A stretch of 64,000 bases of DNA from Lactococcus lactis. Its GTDB lineage: Bacteria > Bacillota > Bacilli > Lactobacillales > Streptococcaceae. This document shows, piece by piece, positions 25,974 through 41,859 of the stretch. Position 1 is the stretch's first letter. The number at the start of each line of letters is the position of its first letter. Below the pieces are notes generated by a model. The model was given only the letters and a program-made list of their open reading frames with translations, was not told the origin of the DNA and searched no databases. Location: assembly GCF_029023865.1 (NCBI RefSeq), contig NZ_CP118969.1:1302001-1366000 (forward strand). Reading direction: 5' to 3'. A program made the translations under genes and the position numbers.

Positions 25974-26023
25974 GGTGCTTATCATTATATTTCATAAATA
26001 ATCCGACTACTTCCTCCTGAATT

Positions 26024-27190
26024 CTAATCCTCCCCATATACGTCACGAGTATAAACTTTTTCTTGGACACTTAGTAGTTGTCTAGAAAATCTGTTAGCAA
26101 TAATAACGTCCGCCTTGTCTTTAAATTGATCAAAGTCACTATAAACTTGTATATCTTGGAATGTTTTCTCTTTCAATATTGGTTCAAAAATAATGACCCT
26201 AACTCCCAATGAAGCTAGCTCAAACATAACATCCTGAATGGATGATTCGCGGAAATTATCGGAGCTTTTCTTCATGACTAATCGATAAACACCAACCACT
26301 TTGGGGCGTTTTTTCATAATCATACTTACAATATGGTGCTTTCGAGTTGTATTAGAAGAAACGATAGATTGAATAATATTTTCTGGTATATAATCATAGT
26401 CAGCAAGTAATTGCTTTGTATCTTTTGGCAAACAGTACCCTCCATATCCAAAAGAAGGATTATTATAGTTCTTACCAATACGGGGATCTGAACAAATTCC
26501 TTCAATTATTTTTTTAGTATCCATTTCCTTAATTTCTGTAAATGTGTCAAGTTCATTGAAGAAAGCAACCCTTAACGCTAAATATGCATTAGCGAAAAGC
26601 TTTATTGACTCAGCCTCATTTTGGTTTGTAAGGAACACTGGAATATCTTCCCTAATGGCCCCATTGCACATGAGTTTCGCAAATTTTTCAGCATATAGTG
26701 ATGTTCCTCCAACGACCACTCTAGTTGGATAAAGATTATCAATTAATCCTTTTCCCTCCCTTAAAAACTCAGGAGAAAATAGTATCTTATCAGTATCGAA
26801 TTTCTCACACAATAAACTAGTATAACCGACAGGAACAGTTGATTTAATAATAATAACTGCTTCAGGCTTGCTTTGTTGTACATATTCCACGATTTCATCT
26901 ACTGATGATGTATCAAATTTTTTCTTTTCTACATCGTAGCATGTCGGTGTCGCTATGACAACATATTCTGAAAATCGGATAGCTTCCTCTTTATTTGTAG
27001 TTGCTTTCAAATTTAACTTTTTACATTTTAAAAATATCGACACCTCTACGTCGAGAATTGGAGAAATTTTTCTGTTAATCATGTCAATTTTTTTATTGTC
27101 TATATCTACTAAAGTCACTTCATTAAATTGCGATAAAAGCACTCCTACCGTCAGCCCTACATATCCAGCACCTATGACAGCTATCTTCAT
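26024..27190 (-). CDS. UDP-glucose 6-dehydrogenase
   Basis: A 388-residue NAD-dependent enzyme that oxidises UDP-glucose twice to UDP-glucuronate. The N-terminal Rossmann motif is IGAGYVGL (6-13). The catalytic cysteine is Cys253 in FGYGGYCLPKDTKQ, and the central PVGYTS and SPEFLREGKG motifs are present. The ATG at 27190 follows AAGGAGG by seven bases; two upstream TTG codons are in frame but unnecessary. It is the last gene of the cluster and overlaps the methyltransferase stop. In this setting it would supply UDP-glucuronate to the cytosylglucuronate synthase-like protein. A related UDP-ManNAc dehydrogenase cannot be excluded. Confidence 0.85.
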   Translation of the reverse strand: MKIAVIGAGYVGLTVGVLLSQFNEVTLVDIDNKKIDMINRKISPILDVEVSIFLKCKKLNLKATTNKEEAIRFSEYVVIATPTCYDVEKKKFDTSSVDEIVEYVQQSKPEAVIIIKSTVPVGYTSLLCEKFDTDKILFSPEFLREGKGLIDNLYPTRVVVGGTSLYAEKFAKLMCNGAIREDIPVFLTNQNEAESIKLFANAYLALRVAFFNELDTFTEIKEMDTKKIIEGICSDPRIGKNYNNPSFGYGGYCLPKDTKQLLADYDYIPENIIQSIVSSNTTRKHHIVSMIMKKRPKVVGVYRLVMKKSSDNFRESSIQDVMFELASLGVRVIIFEPILKEKTFQDIQVYSDFDQFKDKADVIIANRFSRQLLSVQEKVYTRDVYGED

Positions 27191-27969
27191 CAACAATCCT
27201 CCTTATAATTATCTAAAGCTCCTATCTTCTGTAATAGTTTTTTCCCCTGTACATAGGTTTTCCGATTTGTTTCATATGTAATGAAATTTCTATTGTTTTC
27301 AAAGGAACAGATAGCTGTAGTAGCTTGCCCCATAAATGGATCTAAAATCACATCTTTACCAATGGAATAAATTTCAATCAATTTGTTTACTAACTCTTTG
27401 GGAAAAGCAGGTGGTCTAGTTGAGTAATCCCACGGGATGTGCCAAATATAATCCAATAATCTCGTCTCAGAAAAAACTTTACTATGCTTTATGAAGCCTT
27501 TTCTTTTCTTAAATATCATTACATACTCATAGTTATTCAAAATAAGCGTATTTTCATTAGAGTATATATCGTTAAATTTGTACACTTGGTTTTCAATATA
27601 CTTAGAATTAATTATATCCCATATAATTGTCCCTTCAATATAAAATCCATGATTAACAAAATATTTCTCTATATCATGCTTTATATCATAATAACAATTT
27701 TGATTTTTCCTAGTAATCTCAACAGTACTACAAACATTGATACAAATTGTTCCGTCATCTTTCAAAGAGTCTATACACCTCTTCCAAACCTGATTCAAAC
27801 TTTGCAAATATCTTTGATATGTTTCTGCAAATCCAATTTGTTTACTGCTTTTATAATCAACTAAGTTAAAATAAGGTGGAGATGTGATAACTAAATCCAC
27901 GATGGATTGTTTCAGTTCCTCCATTTCTCTTGCATCTTCATTATAGATAAAATTAGTTTTGTTTGTCAT
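27190..27969 (-). CDS. SAM-dependent DNA methyltransferase of the SPPY (N4-cytosine/N6-adenine) class
   Basis: A 259-residue beta-type amino-methyltransferase. Motif IV is VDLVITSPPYFNL (residues 30-33 SPPY) and motif I is LDPFMGQATTAICS, in the order typical of the beta class; SPPY is common in N4-cytosine enzymes. The ATG at 27969 follows AAGGA. No restriction endonuclease gene is adjacent. Being inside a cytosine-nucleoside cluster, it might modify DNA for cluster protection or stability, or might be recruited to methylate the cytosine amino group of the product; neither is shown. Confidence 0.78.
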   Translation of the reverse strand: MTNKTNFIYNEDAREMEELKQSIVDLVITSPPYFNLVDYKSSKQIGFAETYQRYLQSLNQVWKRCIDSLKDDGTICINVCSTVEITRKNQNCYYDIKHDIEKYFVNHGFYIEGTIIWDIINSKYIENQVYKFNDIYSNENTLILNNYEYVMIFKKRKGFIKHSKVFSETRLLDYIWHIPWDYSTRPPAFPKELVNKLIEIYSIGKDVILDPFMGQATTAICSFENNRNFITYETNRKTYVQGKKLLQKIGALDNYKEDC

Positions 27970-28039
27970 AATAAAATCCTTCTTCTCTAAAAAATTCATT
28001 TTCCTATTTTCTATGTAATGGCAGTAGAAAATCTAATTC

Positions 28040-29629
28040 CTAGACCAAATCTATAGGGAGGCTATCATATCTATCAATAGTTCCATTTTGAAAAATCAAG
28101 CTTTGATTAAAAATTTTTTTCAAAAAATAACGATCATGAGAAACAGCGATTAGTGTCCCCTGGTATTTTGAAAGAACCTGTTCAATTTCTTCTCTGGCTA
28201 AAATATCTAAATGATTTGTTGGTTCATCTAAAATTAAAAGATTAATTTTCTTCTGAAATATCGTCATCAAGTAAAGACGAACCTTTTCCCCACCAGATAA
28301 ATCTTTAATTCGCTTAGTTACATCACTTGCATAAAAAGCAAATTTTGCTAATTCTCTACGTGCTTCTTGTTCATTCCCAATCAGTGTTTTTGCAACATCA
28401 ATCAATCTAAGATTTACGTCTGAAAAGGTTATAATCTGTGGCACATAACCAATTTTAGCACTACTTGCAATCTTAAAAGTACCGCTATCTGCTTTAATCT
28501 GTCCCATTAGAATTTTCAATAGACAAGTTTTCCCAGAACCATTATCACCTAATATAGCTATCCTATCATTTCTTAAAACTGTAAAATTTGCATTCTCGAA
28601 AAGGATCCGATTCCCTATAGTCTTTACTAGCCCTTCTACGACGATTTGCTCTTTTCCAGCTTTTTCTGTACTCTTTACTTCAACTCTTAACCTGTTTTCA
28701 TTGCGAGGAGGTTCCTTAATAAGAATCATTCTCTCTAACCGATGTTCAATTTCCTTTGCTTTTTTATAAAAATCTTGATTATCTCCCTCGTTTGCCCATT
28801 GCCGAAATTGCCTAATAAGTTTTTTTAGACGCAGAATTTCTCTTTGCTGAAGTTCATAGCTTTTTTTTAGTCTTTCAATCTCTTCCTTTTTTTGCTTAAC
28901 ATATTCCGAATAATTTCCCTTATAGCTGTTAGCTTTCCCATCTTCAAGCTGAACAACTTTCTTGACAGTATTATTTAAAAATTCTCGGTCATGAGAAATC
29001 ACTATGAAAGCTTTATGAGTTGTTTTAAGGTAGTTTTCAAGCCAAATAATTCCTGTCATATCTAAATGATTCGTTGGTTCATCTAAAAGTAACAGTTCTG
29101 CATCAGACAAAAGAATTCTTGCTAACTCTACCCGTACCCTTTCGCCACCACTGATAAAAGACATCGGAAGGTACATTTGCTCTTCTAATCCAAAACTTTT
29201 AAGTATATTCACAATTCTATCTTCAATAGAGAACCCCCCAAGCGATTCAAACTTCTCTTGGACATTTCCATAATGATTTAACATTTCGTCAGAAGGAGAG
29301 GATTCATTAGAAAGCTGTTCTTCTAATTCTTGCAACTGTTTTTTTAAATAACCAATTTCCTCAAAACTTTCAAGAATATACTGAAAAGGTGATTGCTCTC
29401 CTATCGATAGTTCTTGCTGAACATACCCGATTTTTAATTTTTTCTTTTTATTGATACTCCCCAATTCTGGTGATATCTGACCAATCATAATTTTAAAAAG
29501 GCTAGTCTTTCCAGTGCCATTGTTTCCAATAAGGCCCATTTTATCACCTTCATTTACAGCAAAATCAAGCCCATCAAAAATGGGTAGCCCATCATAATTT
29601 TTTGTAATCTTAGTCAACTGAATTAACAT
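28040..29629 (-). CDS. ABC-F ribosome-protection protein
   Basis: A 529-residue protein with two ABC domains and no membrane segments. First domain: Walker A GNNGTGKTS and signature SGGERVRVELARI. Second: GDNGSGKTC and LSGGEKVRLYLM. DEPTNHLD occurs twice. The charged inter-domain linker (about residues 225-310, with KKSYELQQREILRLKK) is the part that reaches the peptidyl transferase centre in antibiotic-resistance ABC-Fs such as Lsa, Vga and OptrA. The ATG at 29629 follows GGAAG; an upstream extension is unlikely. Cytosine nucleosides such as blasticidin S and gougerotin hit this ribosomal site, so self-resistance is the likely role. Confidence 0.85.
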   Translation of the reverse strand: MLIQLTKITKNYDGLPIFDGLDFAVNEGDKMGLIGNNGTGKTSLFKIMIGQISPELGSINKKKKLKIGYVQQELSIGEQSPFQYILESFEEIGYLKKQLQELEEQLSNESSPSDEMLNHYGNVQEKFESLGGFSIEDRIVNILKSFGLEEQMYLPMSFISGGERVRVELARILLSDAELLLLDEPTNHLDMTGIIWLENYLKTTHKAFIVISHDREFLNNTVKKVVQLEDGKANSYKGNYSEYVKQKKEEIERLKKSYELQQREILRLKKLIRQFRQWANEGDNQDFYKKAKEIEHRLERMILIKEPPRNENRLRVEVKSTEKAGKEQIVVEGLVKTIGNRILFENANFTVLRNDRIAILGDNGSGKTCLLKILMGQIKADSGTFKIASSAKIGYVPQIITFSDVNLRLIDVAKTLIGNEQEARRELAKFAFYASDVTKRIKDLSGGEKVRLYLMTIFQKKINLLILDEPTNHLDILAREEIEQVLSKYQGTLIAVSHDRYFLKKIFNQSLIFQNGTIDRYDSLPIDLV

Positions 29630-29651
29630 ATTTCTTCCAATCAATATTATT

Positions 29652-29724
29652 AAAAATGGAGTATCCGCAGCAGTATTCAATAGGTAAACATATTAAATCG
29701 TCTTTTTACTTACTGTGGATACTC
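29652..29724 (-). promoter_or_regulatory. Candidate attenuator leader of the ABC-F gene
   Basis: On the minus strand GAGTATCC-A-CAG (29724-29713) can pair with CTG...GGATACTC (29672-29659), followed by ATTTTTA just upstream of the ABC-F ribosome site. A five-codon frame, ATG TTT ACC TAT TGA (29691-29677), lies in the loop. Leader peptides and terminator hairpins of this sort regulate several ABC-F resistance genes. The tiny frame has only a weak ribosome site. Confidence 0.4.
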
Positions 29725-29844
29725 TATATCCTTATCTTTATTCCTAATGTACGTATTTCTAAGATAGTATAGAATGAATTAGCTTGTAATAATAATTTAT
29801 GTATTTTATAGATTAAATGCTTTTTGAACACCAAAGCAGCAAAT

Positions 29845-30522
29845 CTACATACTTTTATTCAACTTCCCTTTTACAACTTGAAGAGGTTTCTGACTAAAGG
29901 ATACAACTTTACATTTTAAATGAGTTCCTATATATCTAAAAATTGGACAATCTACTTCAAACTGGTCAGACTCAATTTTTTTCTCTCTAGTAACATCGAA
30001 AGAATTTAAAGGAAACATTAATCCAACACCATAATATTTTAATAGAGCTTCCTTAGAACACCAAATGTAATAAAATTTTTCAAGAGGTTTCTTTGATTTA
30101 TGAATTAATTGATATTCATTTCTAGTGAAAAAACGTCGAGCAAATTCTAAGAATTTTTCTCTTTCAATCATACTCTCACAATCAATACCGATACTACTAC
30201 TTGTTGTGATTGCCAAACAAATTATTTTTTGACTATGACTAATAGAAAAGTTCAATCTCTGACCACAAATATATGGTTTCCCCCACTGATTATAGCTAAA
30301 CATTGTATGATTTAAGTTAAGACCTATCTCACTCATCACGGCATCAAAATAATCTTTACTATTTCTGCTTGCATTTGCCCCAAGTCTATCCATAAAAATA
30401 TAATCGTACTTTTCTAACTTATATTTTCTTCTACCCAAAATTTTAAATGTGTTTACAAATTTATTTTCACATCCAAATAAATCAATTATTTTTTTCATAA
30501 ATTTTAAAGCTATACTAATCAC
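29845..30522 (-). CDS. Sfp-type 4'-phosphopantetheinyl transferase
   Basis: A 225-residue protein that transfers phosphopantetheine from CoA to a carrier-protein serine. Diagnostic motifs are SIGIDCESM (magnesium Asp114) and WCSKEALLKYYG (residues 154-165), plus the upstream NFSISHSQ. The start is a GTG at 30522 after GGAAGAAG; the next ATG, eight codons in, lacks a ribosome site. It lies in the cluster that also encodes the carrier protein at 34107-34544, which is its obvious substrate. Chromosomal AcpS is a different, shorter family. Confidence 0.9.
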   Translation of the reverse strand: MISIALKFMKKIIDLFGCENKFVNTFKILGRRKYKLEKYDYIFMDRLGANASRNSKDYFDAVMSEIGLNLNHTMFSYNQWGKPYICGQRLNFSISHSQKIICLAITTSSSIGIDCESMIEREKFLEFARRFFTRNEYQLIHKSKKPLEKFYYIWCSKEALLKYYGVGLMFPLNSFDVTREKKIESDQFEVDCPIFRYIGTHLKCKVVSFSQKPLQVVKGKLNKSM

Positions 30523-30537
30523 TAACTTCTTCCACCA

Positions 30538-31347
30538 TTATTTTTTTAATTTATCTTGCCAAAAATAAAATGCAGAAATATACGCTTGTACATCGTTAGA
30601 ATGATGTTTTAGACATCTTCCAATCCTGACAATTATCCCGAACAAAATTTCGTGAATTTTATACTCACACGAAAATACTTTTTTATAATTAAGTAAGTCA
30701 ATTATATCTAAAATGTATAAATCCTTTATCTCTTCTGGTGTGGAAAGATACGCAAATATTAAATCATAAATTGGTACACCATAGATTGGCATGGGATCAA
30801 TTATCCCGTTGATTTTATCCTCGTAAAAAATAACGTTATAAATTCCTAAGTCACCGTGAAGCAAATAAGGTTTTTCAGATTTAATATTGCTTAAAGCAAT
30901 TTTTTCTATGATATTATCAATATCAATTTCAAAATTTATATCTGGGTTACCATTGATAAACATTTTTGCCTCTTTTCCTCTTTCGTGTAGAAAGCTTTCC
31001 CAACTTCCTACAGGAAAATTGGCTCTGCCCCAAATCTTTTTTTCAACGACTTGATATTTATTTACAATATTATTCACTAAAAACTTCAAAAGATATTCTT
31101 TATTGAGATTATTTTTTGTTCTCCCCTCAATGTATTTATATATGATAAAGGAATCATCAGAAGAAATTGCCAGTAGTTTAGGATACCACTCTACCTTTTC
31201 ATAGTAATTCAAAAACATAGATTCATCCCGTAACACCTGAGAATTGTTCAATTTTATAACTATGCCACCATAAAGTGGTAAAGAAATATGGAAACAACTG
31301 CTTAATGTACCTCCCGATAATTTTTTTACTTTTAAGTTATTTTTCAA
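30538..31347 (-). CDS. Aminoglycoside-phosphotransferase-fold (APH/choline kinase-like) protein
   Basis: A 269-residue kinase-like protein. LLHGDLGIYNVIF holds the catalytic Asp and the metal-binding Asn, and GIIDPMP the second Asp; a lysine in IVIKLNN would contact ATP. The start is taken as TTG at 31347 because AGAGAGG lies about seven bases upstream; an in-frame ATG 13 codons earlier has no clear ribosome site. The family phosphorylates small hydroxylated or amino compounds. Here it could phosphorylate the product as self-protection, or act in assembly. The substrate cannot be told from sequence. Confidence 0.75.
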   Translation of the reverse strand: MKNNLKVKKLSGGTLSSCFHISLPLYGGIVIKLNNSQVLRDESMFLNYYEKVEWYPKLLAISSDDSFIIYKYIEGRTKNNLNKEYLLKFLVNNIVNKYQVVEKKIWGRANFPVGSWESFLHERGKEAKMFINGNPDINFEIDIDNIIEKIALSNIKSEKPYLLHGDLGIYNVIFYEDKINGIIDPMPIYGVPIYDLIFAYLSTPEEIKDLYILDIIDLLNYKKVFSCEYKIHEILFGIIVRIGRCLKHHSNDVQAYISAFYFWQDKLKK

Positions 31348-31412
31348 AATGCTTCCTCTCTCTTCATCATAGCCGCGCGACCGCATGATCTACTTGTACA
31401 GAACTCCGTCTT

Positions 31413-32576
31413 TTAATGGTATTCAAACGATAAACAGCAATTATCAATTCTGTCAAACGTTTCCTTTAAGACTTCCATATCTTTAGTAGCAGATATTCTG
31501 ATATATTTTTCGCCAAAAGATTTACTAAATAGATTCCCTGGGGCAACTAAAATTTTATATTCTTTCAGTAACCTCTTAGAAAATTCAATTGAACTCATTC
31601 CAGTATTTTCTATATTGATAAAGGCAAACATTCCTCCTTGGCATCTTTTCATCGAAAGATATTTGTTTTTTGATACTCTAAAGAAAATATAGTTCAGCCT
31701 ATTTTCCAAACATTTTTTATATTTGTCCGCTATTTCTAGATTTTCAAGTGCATAAATTCCAGCTTTTTGCGAAATTGTTGGGGCAGTATATGTTAAAAAA
31801 TCACTAATTTTTCTAGCAGCATCATTTATAAATACCGGCCCAATCATGTACCCAATTCTCCAACCAGTCATGGCAAATGCTTTTGAAAAGCTCCCAAAAA
31901 TGACTGTATTGTTTGGAGCATATTTGGCAATTGAAGTATATTTGGGCAAAAAACAGAGAAGATTATATACTTCATCGGAAAAAATATATATTCCATGATT
32001 CTCTGCCAATCTTGCCAATCCTTTCATTATCTCCACACTATATACCTCTCCAGACGGATTATTCGGTGAATTTAGAATTATCACTTTAGTTTTATCAGTA
32101 ATTGTTCGCTCCATTTCTTCCAAAAAATTTTTTGAGTTTTTTTGGTAAAACCCATTAAAAAAAACAGGAATTCCATCACAGGCTAAAACCTGTTGCACAT
32201 ACGGAGAATAATAGGGCTCAATTATTATAACTTCATCTCCAAAATCAAGAACAGCTCTCATTGCCAAATACATTCCGTGCATAGCCCCCACCGTAGCTCG
32301 TATCTGCTCAGTAGCAAAATCCAACTGATATACTTTCCTATAATACTGCTTAACGGATGAAATGAAATCATCATCTCCGTCAGGTTTTGTGTACCCAGTA
32401 TTCCCCTTTAAAGCATCGGAAAATGCAAATTTAACTATTTCATGATTTGTACCTAAATCTGGTTCACCAATAGCGAGATCTATTAGTCCATTTGAGTCGT
32501 CTGATTTGCTTGAAAGCTCTGATAACATTCCATCTGCTGTTCCCTCCCACCTCTTAGCTAATCTCATCTTCTTCAC
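31413..32576 (-). CDS. Class I/II PLP aminotransferase (aspartate aminotransferase fold)
   Basis: A 387-residue fold-type I aminotransferase. Motifs: NSPNNPSGEVYS, IFSDEVYNLL (Asp201, Tyr204), and the PLP lysine Lys232 in GSFSKAFAMTGWRIGY with the following arginine; the C-terminal YIRISATKD binds a substrate carboxylate. It overlaps the previous gene by 23 bases. In the cluster it may make the amino acid used by the carrier-protein ligase or aminate an intermediate. Its exact substrate is not predictable. Confidence 0.85.
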   Translation of the reverse strand: MKKMRLAKRWEGTADGMLSELSSKSDDSNGLIDLAIGEPDLGTNHEIVKFAFSDALKGNTGYTKPDGDDDFISSVKQYYRKVYQLDFATEQIRATVGAMHGMYLAMRAVLDFGDEVIIIEPYYSPYVQQVLACDGIPVFFNGFYQKNSKNFLEEMERTITDKTKVIILNSPNNPSGEVYSVEIMKGLARLAENHGIYIFSDEVYNLLCFLPKYTSIAKYAPNNTVIFGSFSKAFAMTGWRIGYMIGPVFINDAARKISDFLTYTAPTISQKAGIYALENLEIADKYKKCLENRLNYIFFRVSKNKYLSMKRCQGGMFAFINIENTGMSSIEFSKRLLKEYKILVAPGNLFSKSFGEKYIRISATKDMEVLKETFDRIDNCCLSFEYH

Positions 32577-33477
32577 TCATCTTATCCTTTCTTTCAACAA
32601 GCTGATTTTTTATAAAATTCTGAACGTACGTAATCAAATCATTTAAATCTATCATCAATTTTTCTTTCAAGATTTTATTAAAATACTCTAACCTCAATAT
32701 TGTTTCTGTAGTCAAATCAAGAATTGGGACATTACTAGGACTATCAACCAATAAACAGTGTTCATAACCAAATAACGAGGGGAACGGGGAAGTTACAAGA
32801 TACTGCCCTCTCTCCTCCATTCCTATTATTACTGATTTAGACAAATGAAGTCCATCTATGATTAAGTAGCTATTATCAATTTCAGAATTATCAAGATATC
32901 TATATCGTAATGCATAGCTTTCATATCCTTTCAATAAATCTTCTTCATTTATTTCTCCCAAGGGGTAAGCACTCTTTAATGGATCTAGTGTAAATGGATT
33001 AAAGAGTCCGTACAGTTTTTCAATAGGTAAGAATCCATATCTTATCTTTTTTGATAACGATGTCTCAACTTTTATATTTAAGAGATTAGACAGCTCAGAA
33101 ATCAAGCTAGCTAGTTGAATACCAATATTCTTAAACTCTACATTTAAAAATGGATAATTATGACATTCTTCTGCAATTGGAAGTAGAATTTTTCCTGTTA
33201 CACCAAATTTTGAAGAAAAAATGAACACATTTAATGTCTCGAGAAGAAAAGACAAAGGAAGTTTTTCAATCTTTCCCTGTGATTTATATATACAGACGCC
33301 TCCAACAACACATCTTATTTTATTTTGATTTTGATTTAAATTATATCCTCCCACTATCAGCTCTGATAGGTCATCTAAACTACTACTCCACTCTTTATCA
33401 AGAGAAGTTATTCCCATCTTTTCCCATAAATACGGATTCCCCTCTCCCAATTTTAGTGCTTTATTTCTTCCGTCCAT
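32554..33477 (-). CDS. Unrecognised protein linked to the amino acid:carrier ligase
   Basis: A 307-residue soluble protein. I do not recognise the family. An N-terminal GEGNPYLWEKMGI is followed by a central stretch (FLNVEFKNIGIQLASLISEL) faintly like the cofactor-proximal helix of nitroreductase or SagB-type proteins, and an acidic helical end. The start at 33477 is chosen because GGAG lies about ten bases before it; the longer frame overlaps the ligase gene heavily. It overlaps the ligase stop by 17 bases and the aminotransferase start by 23, so it is made with them and probably acts on the carrier-bound amino acid or the nucleoside. Confidence 0.6.
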   Translation of the reverse strand: MDGRNKALKLGEGNPYLWEKMGITSLDKEWSSSLDDLSELIVGGYNLNQNQNKIRCVVGGVCIYKSQGKIEKLPLSFLLETLNVFIFSSKFGVTGKILLPIAEECHNYPFLNVEFKNIGIQLASLISELSNLLNIKVETSLSKKIRYGFLPIEKLYGLFNPFTLDPLKSAYPLGEINEEDLLKGYESYALRYRYLDNSEIDNSYLIIDGLHLSKSVIIGMEERGQYLVTSPFPSLFGYEHCLLVDSPSNVPILDLTTETILRLEYFNKILKEKLMIDLNDLITYVQNFIKNQLVERKDKMSEEDEIS

Positions 33478-34123
33478 GTCTTTCTTTCTCCAGAATTTCT
33501 CCTGCCAAAAATAATCTTTCGATACCAATTCCAAAACAACATGAAAAAATATCTTTTCTTTTTGTGAAAAAGTCACCATGTACATTTCCAGAAGCAATGG
33601 AAAACTTCTTTCCCTCTTTGTTAAATATTAATTCTTCTTTCTTTTGGTCTGAATCAATAAAACTGTCGTCAGCAATTCTCCATTCGCATTTTATTTTTAA
33701 ATAGTCCTCAATAAATCCTTTTACAGCCTCCTTTACAAAATCATACTCTTTACTAAGAAATTTATCGTCTCCAGTAAGTATAATCTCAAAAACATTGAAA
33801 CACTCAAGTCGTGTTTCTGAATAAGGAGTTCTTAGAGGTTCAAGGCGGTGCACCCTGTTAATTCCGAAAAATCTCCCATCGCTAAAGCTTTGCTCCTGAT
33901 CAAAAAATGATAGACATGCAGCATGAACCAAATAACCGTTTCTATGAGAAGATTCGATATTCTGCGGATGGAAGTACTGTTTACTAGATAAAGAAGGAAG
34001 CCACAGATATTCGAAGTCAAGAGTTGAAAACCTATTTTTTAAATCAGTCTGAATTTTATCTATTTTCTCTGCACTCTTCCCCCGAAGATACAAGGCTCCT
34101 ATGTCATTATTTATATGGTTCAA
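33461..34123 (-). CDS. Amino acid:[carrier protein] ligase-like, stand-alone class II aaRS catalytic core
   Basis: A 220-residue homologue of the catalytic core of seryl-tRNA synthetase-like proteins. Motif 2 is seen as RVHRLEP followed by ETRLECFNVFEI (about residues 91-114) and motif 3 as SCCFGIGIERL (194-204, Arg203). Cys70 and Cys195/196 with Glu113 could hold the zinc typical of amino acid:carrier ligases. There is no tRNA-binding arm or anticodon domain, and the carrier gene directly precedes and overlaps it by 17 bases. It should adenylate an amino acid and load it on phosphopantetheine. It is shorter than the characterised Bradyrhizobium enzymes. Confidence 0.8.
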   Translation of the reverse strand: MNHINNDIGALYLRGKSAEKIDKIQTDLKNRFSTLDFEYLWLPSLSSKQYFHPQNIESSHRNGYLVHAACLSFFDQEQSFSDGRFFGINRVHRLEPLRTPYSETRLECFNVFEIILTGDDKFLSKEYDFVKEAVKGFIEDYLKIKCEWRIADDSFIDSDQKKEELIFNKEGKKFSIASGNVHGDFFTKRKDIFSCCFGIGIERLFLAGEILEKERHGRKK

Positions 34124-34544
34124 TTTTTTCTACTACCTCCTTTATTTTTCTTAAAGAATCTTTACTATTCTTGCCCTGCTGGATACCAACTAGTACTTTT
34201 CCGTCCACTATTTTAAATAGAACCAATCTATCAAATTGAAATTCAAGCCATCTTCTAAAGATTGGTAGTTCTATATTTACTACTACCGCATACCAATCCG
34301 TCCAAGCAATGTTATTAAAATTTTTTGAAAGCCCAATTGACAAGTTTTCTAATGACTCGTATGATTTTTTATTTAATTCTTTTAAATTAAACTGTACATT
34401 GAATCGCGTTTCAAGGTAAGAAAATAGTTCCAGAAGCTCCAAAGATTCAATATCCTGTTCGTTAATCCTTGTTCTTGTATCTACATACTTTTTTCTCTTC
34501 GAAAACCACTTTAGCATTTCTTCAAGGATTTCTTTATTAGTCAC
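34107..34544 (-). CDS. Acyl/peptidyl carrier protein with C-terminal extension
   Basis: A 145-residue protein. Residues 1-80 look like an acyl carrier domain: INEQDIESLELLELFSYLE carries Ser34 in the position of the phosphopantetheine serine, and RFNVQFN matches the usual E-x-x-F-x-I-x-F helix III region. The extra 60 residues (with WLEFQFDRLVLFKIVDGK) are of unknown role and absent from normal ACPs. It is followed by the ligase gene with a 17-base overlap, and the PPTase gene is in the same operon. Confidence 0.82.
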   Translation of the reverse strand: MTNKEILEEMLKWFSKRKKYVDTRTRINEQDIESLELLELFSYLETRFNVQFNLKELNKKSYESLENLSIGLSKNFNNIAWTDWYAVVVNIELPIFRRWLEFQFDRLVLFKIVDGKVLVGIQQGKNSKDSLRKIKEVVEKIEPYK

Positions 34545-34546
34545 TG

Positions 34547-35749
34547 TTATTTACCTGCCAAAATTTCTTTGATAATACGAGCACATTTTTTTGAATCTTC
34601 ACTTGACATTTGCGTTCCAACAACAAAAACTCTATCCCAAATAGACTTCTCATACTCTAGAAGATTTTCCTCTTCATCAGACCACCATCCTTTGGAATTC
34701 ATCCAGGGCTTTAGCCAAGGAGTTTCAATTAATGAAGGATAAATCCAAGCAGGTACTCCTTCTCTATTTAGAACTTCAACTAGTAAATCTCTTCCTTTTT
34801 TGTTCCAATTAGTTGGAAGAACAATCACATTATCAAACCAAACTATTTTAGAATCTAAAGCGACATCCTTTTTTGCAAGGGTTACACCACTATCTTTTAG
34901 AATATCTGTAAAAACTCTCGCCGATTCCATTCGTAAATCTGACTTCTCTTCTAACTTTCGCAGTGAAAATCTTCCTAAAACTGCTTCCATCTCGCCACCT
35001 CTAAAATTAAACCCAGGTGTAATTGCCTGAATACTGTCACTTTTCCCGTGGTGACCGATTATTCTCATCCTTTCGCCAAGCTCTTCATCATCGTAAAGAT
35101 TCATTCCCCCTTGCCCTGCACCAAATAATTTCCTATTTGAGCCAGCAAATGTCGAGATATCACCACGTTTTCCCGCAAAATCATTCCCTATTTTGCTTCC
35201 TAATGCCTGACTAGTATCCTCAATAAGATATTTAGATGAAACCTTATTTACAATGTTATCAATATCCACCACATTACCAAAAAAGTGTGTAACTAACGAT
35301 AATGGGGCCTCGTAATTTACTTTAAATTCTTTTGGAAATTTTCCAAGTAAAGTGATTGGATCTGTGGGAACAAATCTAGGTCTTAATCCTGCATGATAAA
35401 TAGCATTTAGGGAAGAAATAAATCCTGACGAGGTAATCGTCACATTAGTACCTTCAGGTAGCTCAAAAGCCCTAACTGCTGTAACTAATGCAGAACTTCC
35501 CGAGCTGTGAAAGAATCCATTTTTCTTTCCAATCAAATTAGCAAATTCTTTTTCAAGCTTCTTTGCTTCAGGTCCCCCACGCCAATAACATAATTTTCCA
35601 CTTTTTACCACTTTTGCAACAGATTCAGCTGCTTCAACGCAAACACCTGTATCTTCATCAGGAAGTGGCAGAGCCTCCTCTCTTAAGTTATATCTAAGAT
35701 TTTCTAATCTCAAAATTTCTTCAATTGTTCTCAAGTTGTTGTTTTTCAT
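34547..35749 (-). CDS. DegT/DnrJ/EryC1-family sugar aminotransferase
   Basis: A 400-residue PLP enzyme of the sugar aminotransferase family. SSGSSALVTAVRA binds the PLP phosphate, LIEDTSQALGSK holds the ring-contacting Asp (about 178), and the PLP lysine is about 207 in GSNRKLFGAGQGGM. The ATG at 35749 follows GGGAG; the longer TTG start is less likely. It overlaps the exporter gene by 29 bases. The family aminates 3- or 4-keto sugars, so installing the C4' amino group of a cytosylglucuronate-derived sugar is the natural prediction here. Confidence 0.87.
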   Translation of the reverse strand: MKNNNLRTIEEILRLENLRYNLREEALPLPDEDTGVCVEAAESVAKVVKSGKLCYWRGGPEAKKLEKEFANLIGKKNGFFHSSGSSALVTAVRAFELPEGTNVTITSSGFISSLNAIYHAGLRPRFVPTDPITLLGKFPKEFKVNYEAPLSLVTHFFGNVVDIDNIVNKVSSKYLIEDTSQALGSKIGNDFAGKRGDISTFAGSNRKLFGAGQGGMNLYDDEELGERMRIIGHHGKSDSIQAITPGFNFRGGEMEAVLGRFSLRKLEEKSDLRMESARVFTDILKDSGVTLAKKDVALDSKIVWFDNVIVLPTNWNKKGRDLLVEVLNREGVPAWIYPSLIETPWLKPWMNSKGWWSDEEENLLEYEKSIWDRVFVVGTQMSSEDSKKCARIIKEILAGK

Positions 35750-36923
35750 CCTTTTCTCCCATCTCAAATTTTCTTGATATAATAAAATATGTGAGTACAG
35801 AAACTCCGTTAATAAAGGCCAAGACTAACACGGTAACCCATAAACCAAACGTACCTAAGACAAATCCTATTATTAGGTAACATATCCCCAGAGAAATACT
35901 GGAAATAGCATTTCCAATTGATAACATACTTGCTCGTACTTCCGATGGCAATAATCCGTGAATGTAGTTTACGTTTAATATGCTGCACATATAGGGTAAA
36001 CTCGTTAGTGCAAAATATGTTACAAAATACAATCCGTTAATATGAAAAATATTAATAATGAAGCTTGCACTAGAAAGTCCCATTAGTATCCAAATTAGCT
36101 TTTTCGTGCTAATAAACTTGTTTATCTTTGGAGTAATGTAAATGGCCCCACCAGATGAAAAACGCCCTGCCATTATCAAAATTGCAATAATAGTTGTTTG
36201 GATTCCTATAATATGAAAAAACTGCTGAGAAAACATTATGAAAGATAATGCCGTACCTTCAAAAAAAGATAATATCAAAAATATTTTAAAAACGATTTTT
36301 CCATTATCATCTCTAGCGAATAGTGCCAATGTTTCCTTTAAATTTACCTTCTTTTCTTCTCCATTTTCCTCTGTAGTCTCCTCTTGAATTCCCAAGATGA
36401 AAATCATAGCAACTACTATCATTACGGATGTAAGACCATAAACCAGATTCCATGAATATTTTTGAAGAACTCCTCCAATAACTGCAGCTATGGAAAGAGA
36501 AACATAAGAAAGAGACATTGCTTTACTTAATGTTGGTAAGAATTCCTTTTCTTGATTTCTACTTTTTAAATTGTCATACAATAAGGACTCATCTGCACCT
36601 GAAATGAAGGCCATTCCCGCTCCCTCTAAAATGAACAGACCAACAAAAACTGGAAAAGATGAAAAGATTAAATAACCAATGGAAGAAATCGCTAATGCCA
36701 ATAAACCTATACATACACAAAATTTTCGACCAAATTTATCTCCAAAGAATCCAGCTGGAATCTCTATAAAAAATTCACCCAACAGCAAAGCTACCTCAAG
36801 GATGGAAAGTTCTGCTACACTGACTCCTCGCTGAGTACCCAAAAAAATCATGAATATACTTTTTTGAAAAACTAAATTTGAGAAAAAGTAATATCCTAAG
36901 TATCGTCTTATAGTATTTTTCAT
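35721..36923 (-). CDS. Major facilitator superfamily exporter
   Basis: A 400-residue membrane protein with about 12 hydrophobic segments. GFFGDKFGRKFCV after the second segment is the MFS motif A (GxxxDRxGR). A hydrophilic loop with EETTEENGEEKK separates the two halves near residue 185. It overlaps the preceding gene by an ATGA. Its place in the operon suggests export of the cluster's product and a share in self-resistance. Confidence 0.85.
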   Translation of the reverse strand: MKNTIRRYLGYYFFSNLVFQKSIFMIFLGTQRGVSVAELSILEVALLLGEFFIEIPAGFFGDKFGRKFCVCIGLLALAISSIGYLIFSSFPVFVGLFILEGAGMAFISGADESLLYDNLKSRNQEKEFLPTLSKAMSLSYVSLSIAAVIGGVLQKYSWNLVYGLTSVMIVVAMIFILGIQEETTEENGEEKKVNLKETLALFARDDNGKIVFKIFLILSFFEGTALSFIMFSQQFFHIIGIQTTIIAILIMAGRFSSGGAIYITPKINKFISTKKLIWILMGLSSASFIINIFHINGLYFVTYFALTSLPYMCSILNVNYIHGLLPSEVRASMLSIGNAISSISLGICYLIIGFVLGTFGLWVTVLVLAFINGVSVLTYFIISRKFEMGEKDEKQQLENN

Positions 36924-38731
36924 TTTGTTTCTCCTTCAACCGAGATAAAATGTCTCCTAAGCGAAATCCCTAAATTTTGAATTGTAAAAACTGTGAAATA
37001 GTAGCCTTGCCCAGCAATTTTATCATCAAATTCAATTTCAAATTCAATTTGATCCCCACCTTTAATTTTTTTCATCTTTTTGGGTGCGTTTAAGACATTA
37101 TCCTCAATATAACTTGGAACAAACCAACCAAAATAAATATCATCTGATTCTTTAGAATCAATCTCCACCTTTACTGGTATCCTCACTCCTCGCTCTACGT
37201 GATCAGGTGCATAAACGCGCATATCTGGAGTCTTCTCCATTTTAATAGCCTTATCCCCACATCTATAGCAAAATAGCATTTCAATTGAAAAATCATACAT
37301 TGAAAAAGGCTTAAATTTAAAATGCAATGCATCATTACCACACTCACACTTCACAACTTCTACGCTATTTTCATCTATATACGAACGTGAAGTCTCATAA
37401 TCGTCAAAACTCATTATTGAATTGAATTGATCTTTAAGAATCTCTTCACCAATAAATTCATTTAATACATTTATCTTTTGCTTCCATTGTTTCTCTGAAT
37501 TTCCCATATTATTGTAAAGACTATTTCTTGAAATAGAATCTGCAGACTTTATCAAAAAATTACGTATCAACTTGCTAATCTTCCCATTTTCATCTAAAAA
37601 TCCACTAATTTGATATTGCCTAGCCCTATTAATTGACTCAATTAATGCTTCAGATGGATAAGCTTTCTCAAATTCAACAGACTCTTGAGGTTCAATTCCT
37701 ATTTGCAGCATACTGAGTTGGGACTGAGCACCTTTTAGTGAGGAATTAATAATGTTGGGAATATTTTGAAAGCTATTGGCTACAACCCTATCTAGTTCAA
37801 TATAGTCCGAATTTTGAGCTGTAACAGCCACATTGATTGTTTTAGCCACACCATCAATTGCGTTAAGCAGTAAGCTATACTTTTCATCGTATAATGCAAG
37901 ATCAGAAAAAGGTGCATTATTACATGAGCCTAGCGTTAAGTTTTGAGCAATAATATCGCATGCAGGAATCAATTTATGCTCATCTTTAAAACACCCCTGA
38001 TTGCAGTACCCACATTGAGGAGAAAAAGTAACTTTTCTAGAAACTTCAATATTTCTTCCACAAACTGTGTATTCTTCAAGATTTAAATTATCTTCCTTTC
38101 CATGGCCGTATAACAACAGTGAATCCCAATTTGTGCTTAACAGGATTTTTTGAATGTCCATTTTATGCAGTTCAGGCTTATCAAATATTACAAGATTGGG
38201 AGATTGCTCCAACCATTTTTCTTTCCTTTTAAGATTTATTTTTTTACAAGATAAAATCCCATTTTGCACAGCTACATTATCGTGATTTACTTCAACAAAT
38301 TGTTTTGCACATTGCCATGATAAAGAGCAAATGTCCCTCCCGATTATGGCACAAATGTTAACTTTTAATTTTTCAGCGTTGAGAAATAAAGATTTTAAAT
38401 CATTGTAGCGAAAATCTTCATAAATTCCAAAAAATACAATAGAAGTATTGTGAAATTCATAATTCTTCATTTCTTCAATTGTCAACCATTTTTCGGCTAA
38501 AGCAGACTTATATCCCTCAAAGTTACTTAAACCGCTCAAGTCTACACCATAAATTACTTTTTTGGGCGTGGAAAAATTTGTATAAAAACCATTTGAGTCT
38601 TCAATTACCTTTTTTAAATTTTCACGATTTTCAACTAATACGGGTAATTGATTATTCTCGCTAAAGTCGTGACTTTTTAATGCTTCAAAGAAGTTGCTTT
38701 TTTCCGAAAATGTTTTAAAAAGTTCCATCAT
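36920..38731 (-). CDS. Cysteine-rich 603-residue protein, possibly CHAT-like peptidase fold
   Basis: Not a family I can name with confidence. LLLYGHGKEDNL (His210) followed by NLTLGSCNN (Cys270) is spaced like the His-Cys dyad of CHAT/C25 caspase-like domains. Between them is a cysteine cluster, CGYCNQGC (240-247). Two further pairs, CECG (462-464) and CYRCG (488-491), look like a zinc ribbon. The last 90 residues seem beta-rich (VPVKVEID and EFEIEFDD). It overlaps the exporter by ATGA and follows the radical SAM gene. It could be an amide-forming or cleaving enzyme, but no function is claimed. Confidence 0.6.
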   Translation of the reverse strand: MMELFKTFSEKSNFFEALKSHDFSENNQLPVLVENRENLKKVIEDSNGFYTNFSTPKKVIYGVDLSGLSNFEGYKSALAEKWLTIEEMKNYEFHNTSIVFFGIYEDFRYNDLKSLFLNAEKLKVNICAIIGRDICSLSWQCAKQFVEVNHDNVAVQNGILSCKKINLKRKEKWLEQSPNLVIFDKPELHKMDIQKILLSTNWDSLLLYGHGKEDNLNLEEYTVCGRNIEVSRKVTFSPQCGYCNQGCFKDEHKLIPACDIIAQNLTLGSCNNAPFSDLALYDEKYSLLLNAIDGVAKTINVAVTAQNSDYIELDRVVANSFQNIPNIINSSLKGAQSQLSMLQIGIEPQESVEFEKAYPSEALIESINRARQYQISGFLDENGKISKLIRNFLIKSADSISRNSLYNNMGNSEKQWKQKINVLNEFIGEEILKDQFNSIMSFDDYETSRSYIDENSVEVVKCECGNDALHFKFKPFSMYDFSIEMLFCYRCGDKAIKMEKTPDMRVYAPDHVERGVRIPVKVEIDSKESDDIYFGWFVPSYIEDNVLNAPKKMKKIKGGDQIEFEIEFDDKIAGQGYYFTVFTIQNLGISLRRHFISVEGETK

Positions 38732-38812
38732 TTTTTCCTCTAATTTCTATTAATTATGGTGTTATACACATGTTTAACCGCTAAAAATCAACTATTCATA
38801 AGAGATATAGAA

Positions 38813-39778
38813 TTAATACTCCCAATCACTTTTTTCACTGTATGAATAATCCCTTTCTCCATAAAATGCAGCAGTAGAAGAGCAACCGTTACAAATTTCT
38901 TTACCATGAATTCTATATTTTTGTGCAATCCTATCAATTGCATCATTCGTATATGCAAATTTTTCATTTTCAGAAAAATGATAATAGTCTTCTTTTGGAA
39001 GTCCTCTATGAGGAAGCAATGAGCAAACATAAATGTTATTGTTTTTTGCATCATAATATCTTACCCTAGATGTCATACTACACTCCGTCCGAACTCTTGG
39101 TGGTATAGATTCCTTAAAGTACATGTTCTGCTCTTGAAGGGTATCTCCACACCACATCTTTCCAAAAGGAATTATACCATCGTCTGAAAAATATACTTTT
39201 TCAATTACTTCATGAATTTCGTCATAAGTGGCATCATATTCTATTTTTTCCTCTAATTTTAAAGCAGACAATTCCCAGTAGTCAACTCCTATTTTGGAAA
39301 ATTCCTCTTTCAGTTGTGGCATCCTCTTATAATTATGAGGACCACAAACCGTATTTACTCTAGTTAGTATTCCTAACTCTTTACACCGTTTTAAACCATC
39401 TATAGCCTTATTATATAAATCCTTTATTTGTCGATTATTGTTATGATTTTCCCCTATATCATCAATACTAACTATAATCTGGCTGAGACCTGCTGCTTTC
39501 AATTTAGCTACATTTCTACTTAATAATGAACCATTAGTGATAATTGAGCACTTAATTCCTAAATCAGTAGCTTGTCTGATGTATGTAGGAAGATTTAAGT
39601 CTAGTAATGGTTCTCCACCTGTGAACCTAATATAATTAACCTTTTGTCGTAAACATTCTTCTAATATTTCTTGATACTTTTCTGGAGAAAGCCGAAAACG
39701 ATCGTTAGATTTTGCAAAATTACAGAACCAACATCCTGCATTGCATGCTTCATGTAACCTGATGAACAAATACTTCAT
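38813..39778 (-). CDS. Radical SAM enzyme, cytosylglucuronate decarboxylase-like
   Basis: A 321-residue protein. The iron-sulfur motif is CNAGCWFC (Cys12, Cys16, Cys19), followed by FTGGEPLLD (54-57 GGEP) and the strand IIVSIDDIGE. Further C-terminal cysteines (MWCGD, YVCSLLPHRG, CNGCSST) may bind a second cluster. The N-terminus, with CNAGCxxC followed by FAKSNDRFRL, recalls BlsE of blasticidin S synthesis, which decarboxylates cytosylglucuronate. The ATG at 39778 follows GGGAGG and overlaps the glycosyltransferase stop by four bases. Family membership is firm; the exact reaction is inferred from neighbours. Confidence 0.82.
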   Translation of the reverse strand: MKYLFIRLHEACNAGCWFCNFAKSNDRFRLSPEKYQEILEECLRQKVNYIRFTGGEPLLDLNLPTYIRQATDLGIKCSIITNGSLLSRNVAKLKAAGLSQIIVSIDDIGENHNNNRQIKDLYNKAIDGLKRCKELGILTRVNTVCGPHNYKRMPQLKEEFSKIGVDYWELSALKLEEKIEYDATYDEIHEVIEKVYFSDDGIIPFGKMWCGDTLQEQNMYFKESIPPRVRTECSMTSRVRYYDAKNNNIYVCSLLPHRGLPKEDYYHFSENEKFAYTNDAIDRIAQKYRIHGKEICNGCSSTAAFYGERDYSYSEKSDWEY

Positions 39779-40860
39779 AATAGTCCCTCCCTTTCTAATA
39801 CAGTTACCAATTGATTGGCTCCATTTCCTATGATACTTCCATCCTTCCTTTGCACGTCTGCAACAGACGCTTCCAAATATTCGATAATCCCTTGGACGAT
39901 TTGAAAATGATGATATACCCAAGCCTTTCTTAAAATATTTCTAACAATTTGAACTGCCAAGCATTCTTCTATCTCTTTCGATATAACATACTCATTTTCT
40001 AGCATTGCGAGAGAAATTCCCTTTTCACCGAGATTGACATACTTCTCAAGTAATAATGCCTGAGAATAATTTGAGGGAAGTAGGTAGAAAGGAGCAATAT
40101 TTACTGATTTTGCTTCGAGATAGAAAGTTAATCCTGGCGTAGTAAATACCTTCTTTGATGTTCTTGCTTTAGCTAAGAAGTCGGCGTGAGAGAAGTGTTT
40201 TAATACAAATTTACCATTTTCGAATTCTCTAAATTCACTAATTTGTTCCTCGTTACAAGCGAAGAAAACTCTATCGAAATTTTTAAGGTTAATTCTCTCA
40301 AAAACCTGAAGATAAAACTTGAGATATTCTTTTCCAAAATCGTCTCCCTCATACGGTGTAAAAACCCCAGATACATTAACTAAGATATCATTTGTCTTTT
40401 CCTTTTCCATGTTAGACTTTTCAATCTCCAAAATAGGATTAATAACTTCTACATTTTTTAGATTTTTTATCTTTAAATCATCTATAAATATATTTTGAAC
40501 AAAATAGTAATTTGCCTTTTCTATTCCTGATATGGGACAATCCCACATCCAACTAAGACTATCAATAAAAACTTCGATTGTTTTTTCATCAATAATCTCT
40601 TGAATATGACAGTTCATAACATTGATTACCAAATCATATTCATTCGAAATACAATTCCACGTAGTCTTATCAATATTTTCAGTATCTCTTTCAATAAATG
40701 TCTTAACTGCTTTTGCATTTGTTTTCACATAATCTAGGCAATTTCCATCACCCATAAAGTCAATTAGAGCATCTCTTCGTTTAGCAATTTCATTTAGTAT
40801 TGTTACCATTTTTGATGACGGACCTAGTCCGAAATTGGTAGTTACAGCTAATATTTTCAT
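39775..40860 (-). CDS. GT-B-fold glycosyltransferase, cytosylglucuronate synthase-like
   Basis: A 361-residue protein. The N-terminal AVTTNFGLGPSSKMVTILNEI resembles the start of BlsD/MilC-type (hydroxymethyl)cytosylglucuronate synthases, which join free cytosine to glucuronate from UDP-glucuronate. The C-terminal half has FTTPGLTFYLEAKSV, in the place of the nucleotide-sugar site of GT-B enzymes. Its upstream neighbour is a CMP hydrolase-like gene, and UDP-glucose dehydrogenase is in the same operon; both substrates would thus be made locally. The call leans on this context because sequence similarity is modest. Confidence 0.68.
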   Translation of the reverse strand: MKILAVTTNFGLGPSSKMVTILNEIAKRRDALIDFMGDGNCLDYVKTNAKAVKTFIERDTENIDKTTWNCISNEYDLVINVMNCHIQEIIDEKTIEVFIDSLSWMWDCPISGIEKANYYFVQNIFIDDLKIKNLKNVEVINPILEIEKSNMEKEKTNDILVNVSGVFTPYEGDDFGKEYLKFYLQVFERINLKNFDRVFFACNEEQISEFREFENGKFVLKHFSHADFLAKARTSKKVFTTPGLTFYLEAKSVNIAPFYLLPSNYSQALLLEKYVNLGEKGISLAMLENEYVISKEIEECLAVQIVRNILRKAWVYHHFQIVQGIIEYLEASVADVQRKDGSIIGNGANQLVTVLEREGLL

Positions 40861-40884
40861 GCCGTTTCTCCCTCTTATTTTTCG

Positions 40885-41346
40885 TTAAATATTATTCAAA
40901 AATTCATTTAGAGATTCCATTAATTCTTTATCATCTAGCTGCGGGAAATCCAGTTGAGATGAGTAATTTTTAATTTGTGCTGTATCAATCATTCCCAAGC
41001 CCTCGTATAACGGAGTTTTTACTCCAAAAGCATTATTTATGGCTAAAAATATTGGTTTGCCAAATGCAGAAGCCCATCCTAATTCTACTGCACACCCATA
41101 GCTATCATTTGGAAAGGCAACATAAACATCACATTTTTTCATAGCTTCGAAGTCTCGTTGAGTACAGATTTCCCCTGGTGCAATCTTTTCACCAAATTTT
41201 TCAATCTCAATTGCACAAAACACTTCATGTCCCTGACTTCTTAAAACATTGATAAATTCACAGATAAATTTTTCCCTTTCCAAACAACGCTTTTTTGACT
41301 TATCATTCAATATTCCAGTTATTGGTGTTCCTAGCAGTATTTTCAT
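40885..41346 (-). CDS. CMP hydrolase-like N-glycosidase (nucleoside 2-deoxyribosyltransferase superfamily)
   Basis: A 153-residue protein. MKILLGTPITG is the phosphate-binding start. CDVYVAFPNDSYGCAVELGWASAFGKP carries the conserved Asp (about 73) and the nucleophilic Glu88 of the superfamily. BlsM and MilB of the blasticidin and mildiomycin pathways belong here and cut CMP or hydroxymethyl-CMP to the free base. A salvage deoxyribosyltransferase or a DNMP hydrolase is the alternative, but its position as first biosynthetic gene before the glycosyltransferase favours cytosine supply. Confidence 0.75.
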   Translation of the reverse strand: MKILLGTPITGILNDKSKKRCLEREKFICEFINVLRSQGHEVFCAIEIEKFGEKIAPGEICTQRDFEAMKKCDVYVAFPNDSYGCAVELGWASAFGKPIFLAINNAFGVKTPLYEGLGMIDTAQIKNYSSQLDFPQLDDKELMESLNEFLNNI

Positions 41347-41797: not shown

Positions 41798-41859
41798 AGT
41801 GTTCGAGGCAGTATTATTTGCTCTTTTTGTGTTTAAGCAATGTAAAGGAAGAAGGTAAA

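Follow-up and report, generated by a model that had tools for sequence, protein, structure and literature searches.

A cytosylglucuronate-type gene set, predicted to make a peptidyl cytosine nucleoside antibiotic, on an apparently mobile element of Lactococcus

Nucleoside antibiotics that derive from cytosylglucuronate (CGA) are described from Streptomyces and Streptoverticillium (PMC3715490 and PMC11784345). Here we analyze a stretch of 64,000 nucleotides of the Lactococcus lactis chromosome (the window; contig NZ_CP118969.1, positions 1,302,001 to 1,366,000), in which 15 genes on the minus strand, running from 41346 to 26024, form a compact operon. Bacteriocins, not nucleosides, are the familiar weapons of lactic acid bacteria. 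The literature we searched, which lacked most subscription journals, reports no CGA-type cluster for lactococci or lactic acid bacteria. An earlier note on this DNA had proposed a cytosine nucleoside pathway, and from the relationships of the encoded proteins we consider it very probable that the product of the operon is a peptidyl cytosine nucleoside antibiotic, made by the CGA route and then exported. This is a known type of pathway; what is new is the variant, in an unexpected and apparently mobile lactococcal setting.

All three genes that mark CGA-derived antibiotic clusters are found in the operon (Table 1): those for a CMP N-glycosidase, a CGA synthase homologue and a BlsE/MilG homologue. 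Comparing the three proteins with BlsM, BlsD and BlsE, a check suggested in the earlier note, returned relatives for each. The radical SAM protein is, by its sequence, a clear BlsE relative. It has the CxxxCxxC motif named in the earlier note, together with GGEP, and it matches TIGR04466 (rSAM_BlsE) at 1.2e-86 with 291 bits, the next model being MoaA with 88 bits. In the PDB it finds cytosylglucuronate decarboxylase (7vob/7voc) at 1.1e-75, followed by tetraether lipid synthase at 1.3e-8. Because TIGR04466 at E≤0.001 also matched 14 of 14 controls and is therefore unspecific at that level, we used high scores only. A scan with the radical SAM protein also reached two Flavobacteriales loci, 28–29% identical over part of the protein, and blastp found no other cluster gene in either.

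The N-glycosidase proved to belong to the deoxyribosyltransferase superfamily, as had been noted before, and its best PDB relatives by phmmer are CMP N-glycosidase 4jen (2.3e-15; presumably BcmB, the record itself bearing only the enzyme's title) and Blasticidin M 5vto (3.3e-14). For the glycosyltransferase (GT), which the earlier note had likened to CGA synthases, the sole NCBIfam match at E≤0.01 is indeed TIGR04467 (CGA_synthase; 43.7 bits). There is no Pfam match at E≤0.01, and a profile search of the PDB gave a chance-level match only (E 0.82). In alignment with actinomycete CGA synthases, the blocks DSL..W and PGLT..LE...L.P.N.SQ are common to all. We also built a CGA-synthase profile from three actinomycete sequences, those of Kitasatospora sp. 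NBC_00039 (L024), Streptomyces NBC_00467 and Embleya NBC_00888, and searched it over 732 ORFs (638 distinct, at least 60 aa) from the window and the collected loci, the three source loci being left out. Eighteen rows appeared at E≤1, eight of which are copies of the operon GT (from the window and the loci of G000, the host genome, and G403, placed with it in one genus) at 37.7–38.4 bits; two more, at 23.9–25.1 bits, belong to the GT of a second Lactobacillales genome, G249. A BlsF profile gave no row over the same 732 ORFs.

The three actinomycete loci each contain counterparts of five operon genes by blastp at 1e-3: the radical SAM gene (40–41% identity), the nucleoside deoxyribosyltransferase-family N-glycosidase gene (NDT; 32–33% over about 100 aa), the GT gene (21–23%), the DegT aminotransferase gene (25–28%, over part of the length) and the gene of a 603-aa protein (27%). 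Residue E88 of the N-glycosidase, in VELGWAS, is kept in two of the three actinomycete NDTs and in G249. Thus, the operon resembles the blasticidin S (bls) cluster, represented here by the Kitasatospora locus, in its BlsM-, BlsD-, BlsE-, DegT- and BlsK-like genes; Kitasatospora also has an MFS gene, by annotation only, and an ABC-F-like gene that adjoins the CGA synthase gene on the opposite strand and scores 244 bits on NF000355, below the cut-off of 380. However, BlsF has no match in the lactococcal operon, which in turn adds an ACP-like protein, a PPTase, a synthetase-like protein, a class I/II aminotransferase, a kinase and a UDP-glucose dehydrogenase. It is not the blasticidin S cluster proper, since neither the arginine 2,3-aminomutase (BlsG) nor the ATP-grasp ligase (BlsI) family is represented among the 15 proteins.

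Table 1. Features of the operon and its surroundings. Positions are those of the window; operon genes are listed in their order of transcription (5' to 3'), followed by flanking features.
Feature	Position	Strand	Evidence and prediction
CMP N-glycosidase-like (BlsM/MilB/BcmB type), 153 aa	40885..41346	-	PF05014 (Nuc_deoxyrib_tr) 6.9e-8; predicted CMP -> cytosine release
Cytosylglucuronate synthase-like GT (BlsD/MilC type), 361 aa	39775..40860	-	TIGR04467 CGA_synthase 2e-11
Cytosylglucuronate decarboxylase-like radical SAM (BlsE/MilG type), 321 aa	38813..39778	-	Radical_SAM 2.8e-24
BlsK-like protein, 603 aa; predicted tRNA-dependent aminoacyltransferase with four-Cys CxCG...CxRCGD site	36920..38731	-	27% to Kitasatospora blsK-position protein
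Major facilitator superfamily (MFS) transporter; predicted exporter	35721..36923	-	MFS_1 9.8e-23
DegT/DnrJ/EryC1 aminotransferase (BlsH/MilD role); predicted C4' amination	34547..35767	-	PF01041 2.2e-45
Acyl-carrier-protein (ACP)-like, 145 aa; candidate phosphopantetheine Ser34 in DIESL	34107..34544	-	Weak ACP matches; PPTase in operon
Small class II aminoacyl-tRNA-synthetase-like, 220 aa; predicted amino acid:carrier-protein ligase	33461..34123	-	Motif 2 and motif 3 pattern
307-aa protein (start set at ATG 33477); candidate transferase/condensing step	32554..33477	-	No Pfam match at E≤10
Class I/II PLP aminotransferase; predicted side-chain amino acid synthesis or modification	31413..32576	-	PF00155 8.6e-54
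APH/fructosamine-kinase-like phosphotransferase; possible self-protection	30538..31386	-	PF03881 7.1e-6, over cut-off; HGDxxxYN and IDP
4'-phosphopantetheinyl transferase (PPTase)	29845..30522	-	PF01648 9.6e-17
ABC-F ribosomal-protection-type ATPase; predicted target protection	28040..29680	-	NF000355 441 bits, cut-off 380 passed
N4/N6 amino-methyltransferase-like with TSPPY motif	27190..27999	-	PF01555 5.1e-25
UDP-glucose 6-dehydrogenase (UGDH); predicted UDP-glucuronate supply	26024..27196	-	Sole PF03721 match of the genome at E≤1e-10
Terminator-like hairpin, 17 pairs	25936..25974	-	About 50 nt past last operon stop codon
Short ORF, 25 aa, hydrophobic, MKKYKFIYFLTVITVAILSYPIIIW; candidate SHP-type pheromone	41505..41582	-	AGGAGG upstream
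Rgg-family regulator	41818..42756	+	Rgg_C 1.7e-24; TIGR01716 1.6e-26, over cut-off; divergent from operon
Phage-type integrase	17884..19146		
Relaxase	42769..44445		
MobC	44449..44814		

All ORFs named in the earlier note were recovered on the minus strand at the coordinates it gives, and their assignment to one operon agrees with intergenic gaps of −47 to +164 nt across the 15 genes. The UDP-glucose dehydrogenase and the sugar aminotransferase of that note are likewise borne out by their families. Within the genus, 8 of 18 genomes have any PF03721 match at E≤1e-10 and 10 have none. The best PDB relative of the DegT protein is another DegT enzyme, scyllo-inositol transaminase (7b0d).

Compared with mildiomycin (mil), for which we used the published gene list, the operon shares the CGA route, the DegT enzyme (MilD), the radical SAM enzyme (MilG), a putative ACP (MilI) and a putative tRNA-dependent aminoacyltransferase (MilH), all as given in PMC11784345, but has neither a MilA-type hydroxymethylase nor a MilN-type protein of the dihydrodipicolinate-synthase family. 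The comparison with BcmB is closer for the enzyme than for the locus: it is the best PDB match of the N-glycosidase, whereas neighbors and pathway differ. Gougerotin-type clusters combine a CGA synthase with a sugar aminotransferase, and gougerotin keeps its C6 as a carboxamide; the lactococcal operon differs in having a BlsE-like decarboxylase.

The 603-aa protein is related, over nearly its full length, to a Kitasatospora protein encoded between MFS and methyltransferase genes. The annotated order in Kitasatospora is CGA synthase, blsE, blsF, blsG, DegT, ATP-grasp ligase, MFS, 603-aa homologue, methyltransferase, NDT and M1 peptidase, which reads as blsD to blsN and therefore puts the homologue at the blsK position. 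This position comes from gene order, with three annotated bls names and a lettering that we in part presume, and not from a published BlsK sequence. BlsK is a tRNA-dependent aminoacyltransferase, and the relation of the 603-aa protein to the blsK-position protein, which is new in this analysis, strengthens the earlier suggestion of a probably aminoacylated product. The four cysteines of CxCG...CxRCGD are invariant in six of six aligned sequences. A tblastn search with the 603-aa protein matched 5 of 72,556 plasmid records, three of which also have a blsE-type gene; among the 20 records listed of the 143 matched by the radical SAM protein, these three are the only ones with a match about 40% identical over the whole query. 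In a profile search of the PDB, the 603-aa protein gave chance-level matches only (E 0.55). We had also considered a caspase-like peptidase, GHG and SC being kept in two sequences, and dropped it because GHG is GNG in Streptomyces NBC_00557 and the four-Cys site is invariant; the BlsK relationship explains the protein better.

Streptomyces NBC_00557 is the fourth of the plasmid records. Its BlsK-family gene (L027:14908-16722) lies in a neighborhood of nonribosomal peptide synthetase type that includes an ATP-grasp gene but, over the 32 kb displayed, nothing annotated for CGA, so that this aminoacyltransferase family may serve beyond nucleosides. In the fifth record, a blsK-like gene in pieces (L026:5856-7516), 28–58% identical, by piece, to the G249 protein, lies on a 15-kb plasmid of Bombilactobacillus folatiphilus (source: the stingless bee Tetragonula carbonaria), on which neither NDT nor GT found a match at 1e-3.

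A pathway can be proposed from these relationships. UGDH would provide UDP-glucuronate, the BlsM-like enzyme would release cytosine from CMP, and the BlsD-like GT would join the two to CGA, whose sugar the BlsE-like enzyme would decarboxylate and the DegT enzyme would aminate. The class I/II aminotransferase would make or modify an amino acid, which the small synthetase-like ligase would activate in place of the 2,3-aminomutase and ATP-grasp ligase of the blasticidin pathway; held on the ACP, which the PPTase of the operon would prime, the amino acid would then be transferred to the sugar amine, perhaps by way of the 307-aa protein. The BlsK-like enzyme would add an amino acid from aminoacyl-tRNA, a step that in blasticidin has been proposed also to mask toxicity: PMC5572114 puts leucylation forward as self-resistance. 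The MFS protein would export the product, the ABC-F protein would shield the ribosome, and the kinase may inactivate residual product. The product would act on the ribosomal peptidyl transferase center, as suggested by the blasticidin relationship and the ABC-F gene.

For the carrier-protein module, the arguments come from motifs because structure prediction failed. The 220-aa protein has the motif 2 and motif 3 patterns of class II synthetases, RxE...(R/H)xxxFxxx(D/E) and GxGxxR, a combination found in 1 of 798 distinct ORFs of at least 100 aa and recovered 4 times when its residues were shuffled 20,000 times. No PDB entry matches it at E≤1, its best Pfam match (0.059) is unrelated, and in 378 genomes of Bacilli it found itself and two weak matches (E about 0.003), the second lying among ORFs of another kind by eye. 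The 307-aa protein resembles the protein that follows the GT gene in G249 faintly (Smith-Waterman score 64, where 500 shuffles reached at most 62; BLASTP 4e-4 over 44 aa). Neither protein matched any plasmid record. The published account of mildiomycin (PMC11784345) has a putative ACP and a putative tRNA-dependent aminoacyltransferase as well, so this kind of side-chain module has been proposed, unproven, in that pathway too. The TSPPY protein may be no more than a DNA methylase belonging to the element; that it acts instead on the N4 of cytosine seems improbable to us.

The divergent Rgg gene and the adjoining ORF for a short hydrophobic peptide (SHP) suggest quorum control, by which regulator and peptide would time the expression of the operon. 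The equivalent position beside Rgg in G249 holds a DIIVIVGG-type ORF, MKKNLKFILMFLLVMDIIVIVGG, which we take to have the form of a classical SHP; both peptide ORFs were picked by eye from the ORF list. We see even chances that the operon makes a new class of peptidyl cytosine nucleoside antibiotic, distinguished by amino acid delivery through a stand-alone class II synthetase-like protein and an ACP in place of an ATP-grasp ligase, a second residue added from aminoacyl-tRNA by the BlsK-like enzyme, an Rgg pheromone switch and conjugative carriage together with a ribosome-protection gene. If the proposed pathway is correct, a quorum-controlled and apparently conjugative Lactococcus version would extend CGA chemistry to lactic acid bacteria of gut and food. 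It would do so as a compact operon in a cultivable genus, with an ABC-F protein that travels with the presumed antibiotic.

The gene set is rare, although the numbers are approximate because the genome samples were thinned. In the genus, the radical SAM query at E≤1e-20 found 2 of 18 genomes, the host and G403, which is L. nasutitermitis NBRC 111537 (contig NZ_BOVQ01000005.1). In the order, TIGR04467 at E≤0.001 found 3 of 395 genomes (the host, G249 and a MurG-like case, G052) and the NDT profile at E≤1e-8 found 3 of 365 (the host, G249 and G150). The 603-aa profile in the class and TIGR04467 at E≤1e-6 in the phylum each found 1 of 398 genomes, the host itself. A control genome named Lactococcus lactis also matched TIGR04467 in the genus, order and phylum searches. 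GT, BlsK-like and NDT queries gave no confirmed match in viral contigs, and megablast of the DNA from 26000 to 46000 gave none in plasmids. In the L. nasutitermitis copy, 13 of the 15 operon genes align end to end, without gaps or internal stops, at 99.5–100% identity, and an aminotransferase gene aligns from base 2 at 99.7%.

The two other Lactobacillales genomes with an NDT match differ from each other. In G150, a thymidylate-synthase family gene stands beside a BcmB/BlsM-like glycosidase, followed by ORFs that by eye are methyltransferase-like and Rgg-like (L041:11372-13659); a lactic acid bacterium thus seems to carry a locus of bacimethrin type. G249, on the other hand, has a cousin of the operon (L011:15681-19150 and L012:371-2507) with Rgg, an SHP ORF, a BlsK-like protein (29–31%), NDT (48%), GT (47%, middle part), a 307-aa protein and MFS (25%). 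Unlike the operon, the 40 kb around it lack blastp matches to UGDH, ACP, PPTase and DegT; the one match to ABC-F is an ABC transporter-like ORF at a distance of 12 kb, and BlsE finds nothing in the whole genome at E≤0.001. Seven PF03721 matches lie elsewhere in G249, five of them over the cut-off, and in the assembly used the reading frame of its GT gene is broken close to the 5' end. The G249 locus may end at a CGA-level product.

Several observations weigh against the proposed pathway. Both equivalog cut-offs are missed, by the GT (43.7 bits, cut-off 300) and by the radical SAM protein (291 bits, cut-off 400), which is why we write CGA-synthase-like and BlsE-like. The identity of the GT to actinomycete CGA synthases is low, as given above, and its tblastn search of the plasmids at E≤0.01 led to two other Streptomyces proteins (S. 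microflavus, 8e-9, and S. melanogenes, 3e-4), whose surroundings have no annotated blsE, and to none of the three bls-type records. The MFS protein has no blastp match at 1e-3 to the MFS proteins of the actinomycete clusters, and among the 15 operon proteins the families of the bls-type aminomutase, the ATP-grasp ligase and the M1 peptidase are absent. Matches of the ACP-like protein lie below the cut-offs (PF00550, 0.027 and 15.2 bits against 20.8; NCBIfam ACP, 0.0076 and 16.5 bits against 66), with an equally weak match to Glyco_transf_8 (0.0061); motifs are the whole basis of the 220-aa assignment; and single-sequence AlphaFold models of the 220-aa and 307-aa proteins reach mean pLDDT values of 36.0 and 34.3, both unusable. 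The kinase-like gene, unlike the other operon genes, differs from the L. nasutitermitis copy (L014) by one gap, and pN/pS is 0.40 over 36 changes in 15 fully aligned genes (13 operon genes, Rgg and relaxase), too few for a firm claim of selection.

One alternative is a genuine CGA pathway that is silent or incomplete in this host: it would go no further than a shunt product, for example cytosylarabinopyranose or a pentopyranine, and would persist because the mobile element keeps it. An aminomutase and an ATP-grasp ligase are missing, the side-chain module has faint matches, pheromone control may leave the operon off in culture, and the relic blsK pieces on the Bombilactobacillus plasmid indicate that such loci decay. 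Even so, all 15 ORFs are open, genes for export and ABC-F protection are present and the operon is nearly identical in two species, and we hold this reading to be unlikely. A quite different role in cell-surface sugars, in which UGDH, DegT and GT decorate a polysaccharide or teichoic acid, could be suspected because capsule loci often contain UGDH and DegT enzymes. MurG-like proteins of relatives do match CGA-synthase profiles: eight MurG-like background ORFs appear in our profile search at 14.5–17.9 bits, the strongest of them (locus L005) being MurG by eye, in loci that had been chosen for weak TIGR04467 matches. The operon GT, with 37.7 bits against at most 17.9, is clear of this background yet of the same fold family. 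TIGR04467 gives the same picture, with 42–45 bits for the operon GT and 15–19 bits for MurG-like proteins, and the other Lactococcus matches, outside the clusters of the host and L. nasutitermitis, also score 15–19 bits in the genus search. The GT thus scores clearly higher with CGA synthases than the MurG-like proteins do; grouping with unrelated cell-wall enzymes was the outcome that, in the earlier note, would have refuted its proposal. Nor do the operon proteins include a flippase, polymerase or lipid-carrier transferase family, and BlsE- and BlsK-like genes play no part in such decoration, so that a cell-surface function appears highly improbable.

The likeness of the N-glycosidase to BcmB raises one more question, namely whether it acts as BcmB does, in a bacimethrin-type pathway to a pyrimidine antivitamin, the other genes being unrelated. 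Bacimethrin clusters contain thymidylate-synthase family, glycosidase and methyltransferase-like genes. The 15 operon proteins include no thymidylate-synthase family, the neighbors of the glycosidase are CGA-synthase- and BlsE-like genes, and the bacimethrin-like locus of G150 is clearly different; we give this possibility very little credence. Gene content and GT scores led us to reject both the bacimethrin and the cell-surface readings, and a CGA-derived peptidyl nucleoside remains our preferred interpretation.

The best GT match on plasmids deserves mention in its own right. The S. microflavus protein (22.7%), annotated as hypothetical, lies beside a LOG-family gene, two DegT aminotransferases and a glycosyltransferase (L042:5637-11840). 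This may be a further nucleoside pathway, one in which a base-releasing enzyme works with a CGA-synthase-like GT.

The earlier note had placed the core genes in one lactococcal operon on an integrative and conjugative element, with which the integrase, relaxase and MobC genes are consistent. Judged from its genes, the operon looks as if it lies on a transferable element, which would spread the gene set by conjugation. Much of the element is common to L. nasutitermitis: similarity runs from window position 19567 to 55880 in three pieces of 98.8, 96.5 and 89.2% identity, and in the stretch compared it ends at 19567, short of the integrase. At window position 48174, L. nasutitermitis has an additional segment of about 2.6 kb. 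A termite-gut Lactococcus strain, NtB2, appears together with L. nasutitermitis in PMC6003746. Beside the operon, and also common to both genomes, the stretch from 22110 to 25773 encodes a RecA-family protein, a Y-family DNA polymerase (UmuC-like) and an S24/HTH repressor-like protein, and on the other side (46358-55912) the element encodes a 3184-aa protein with SNF2/helicase domains.

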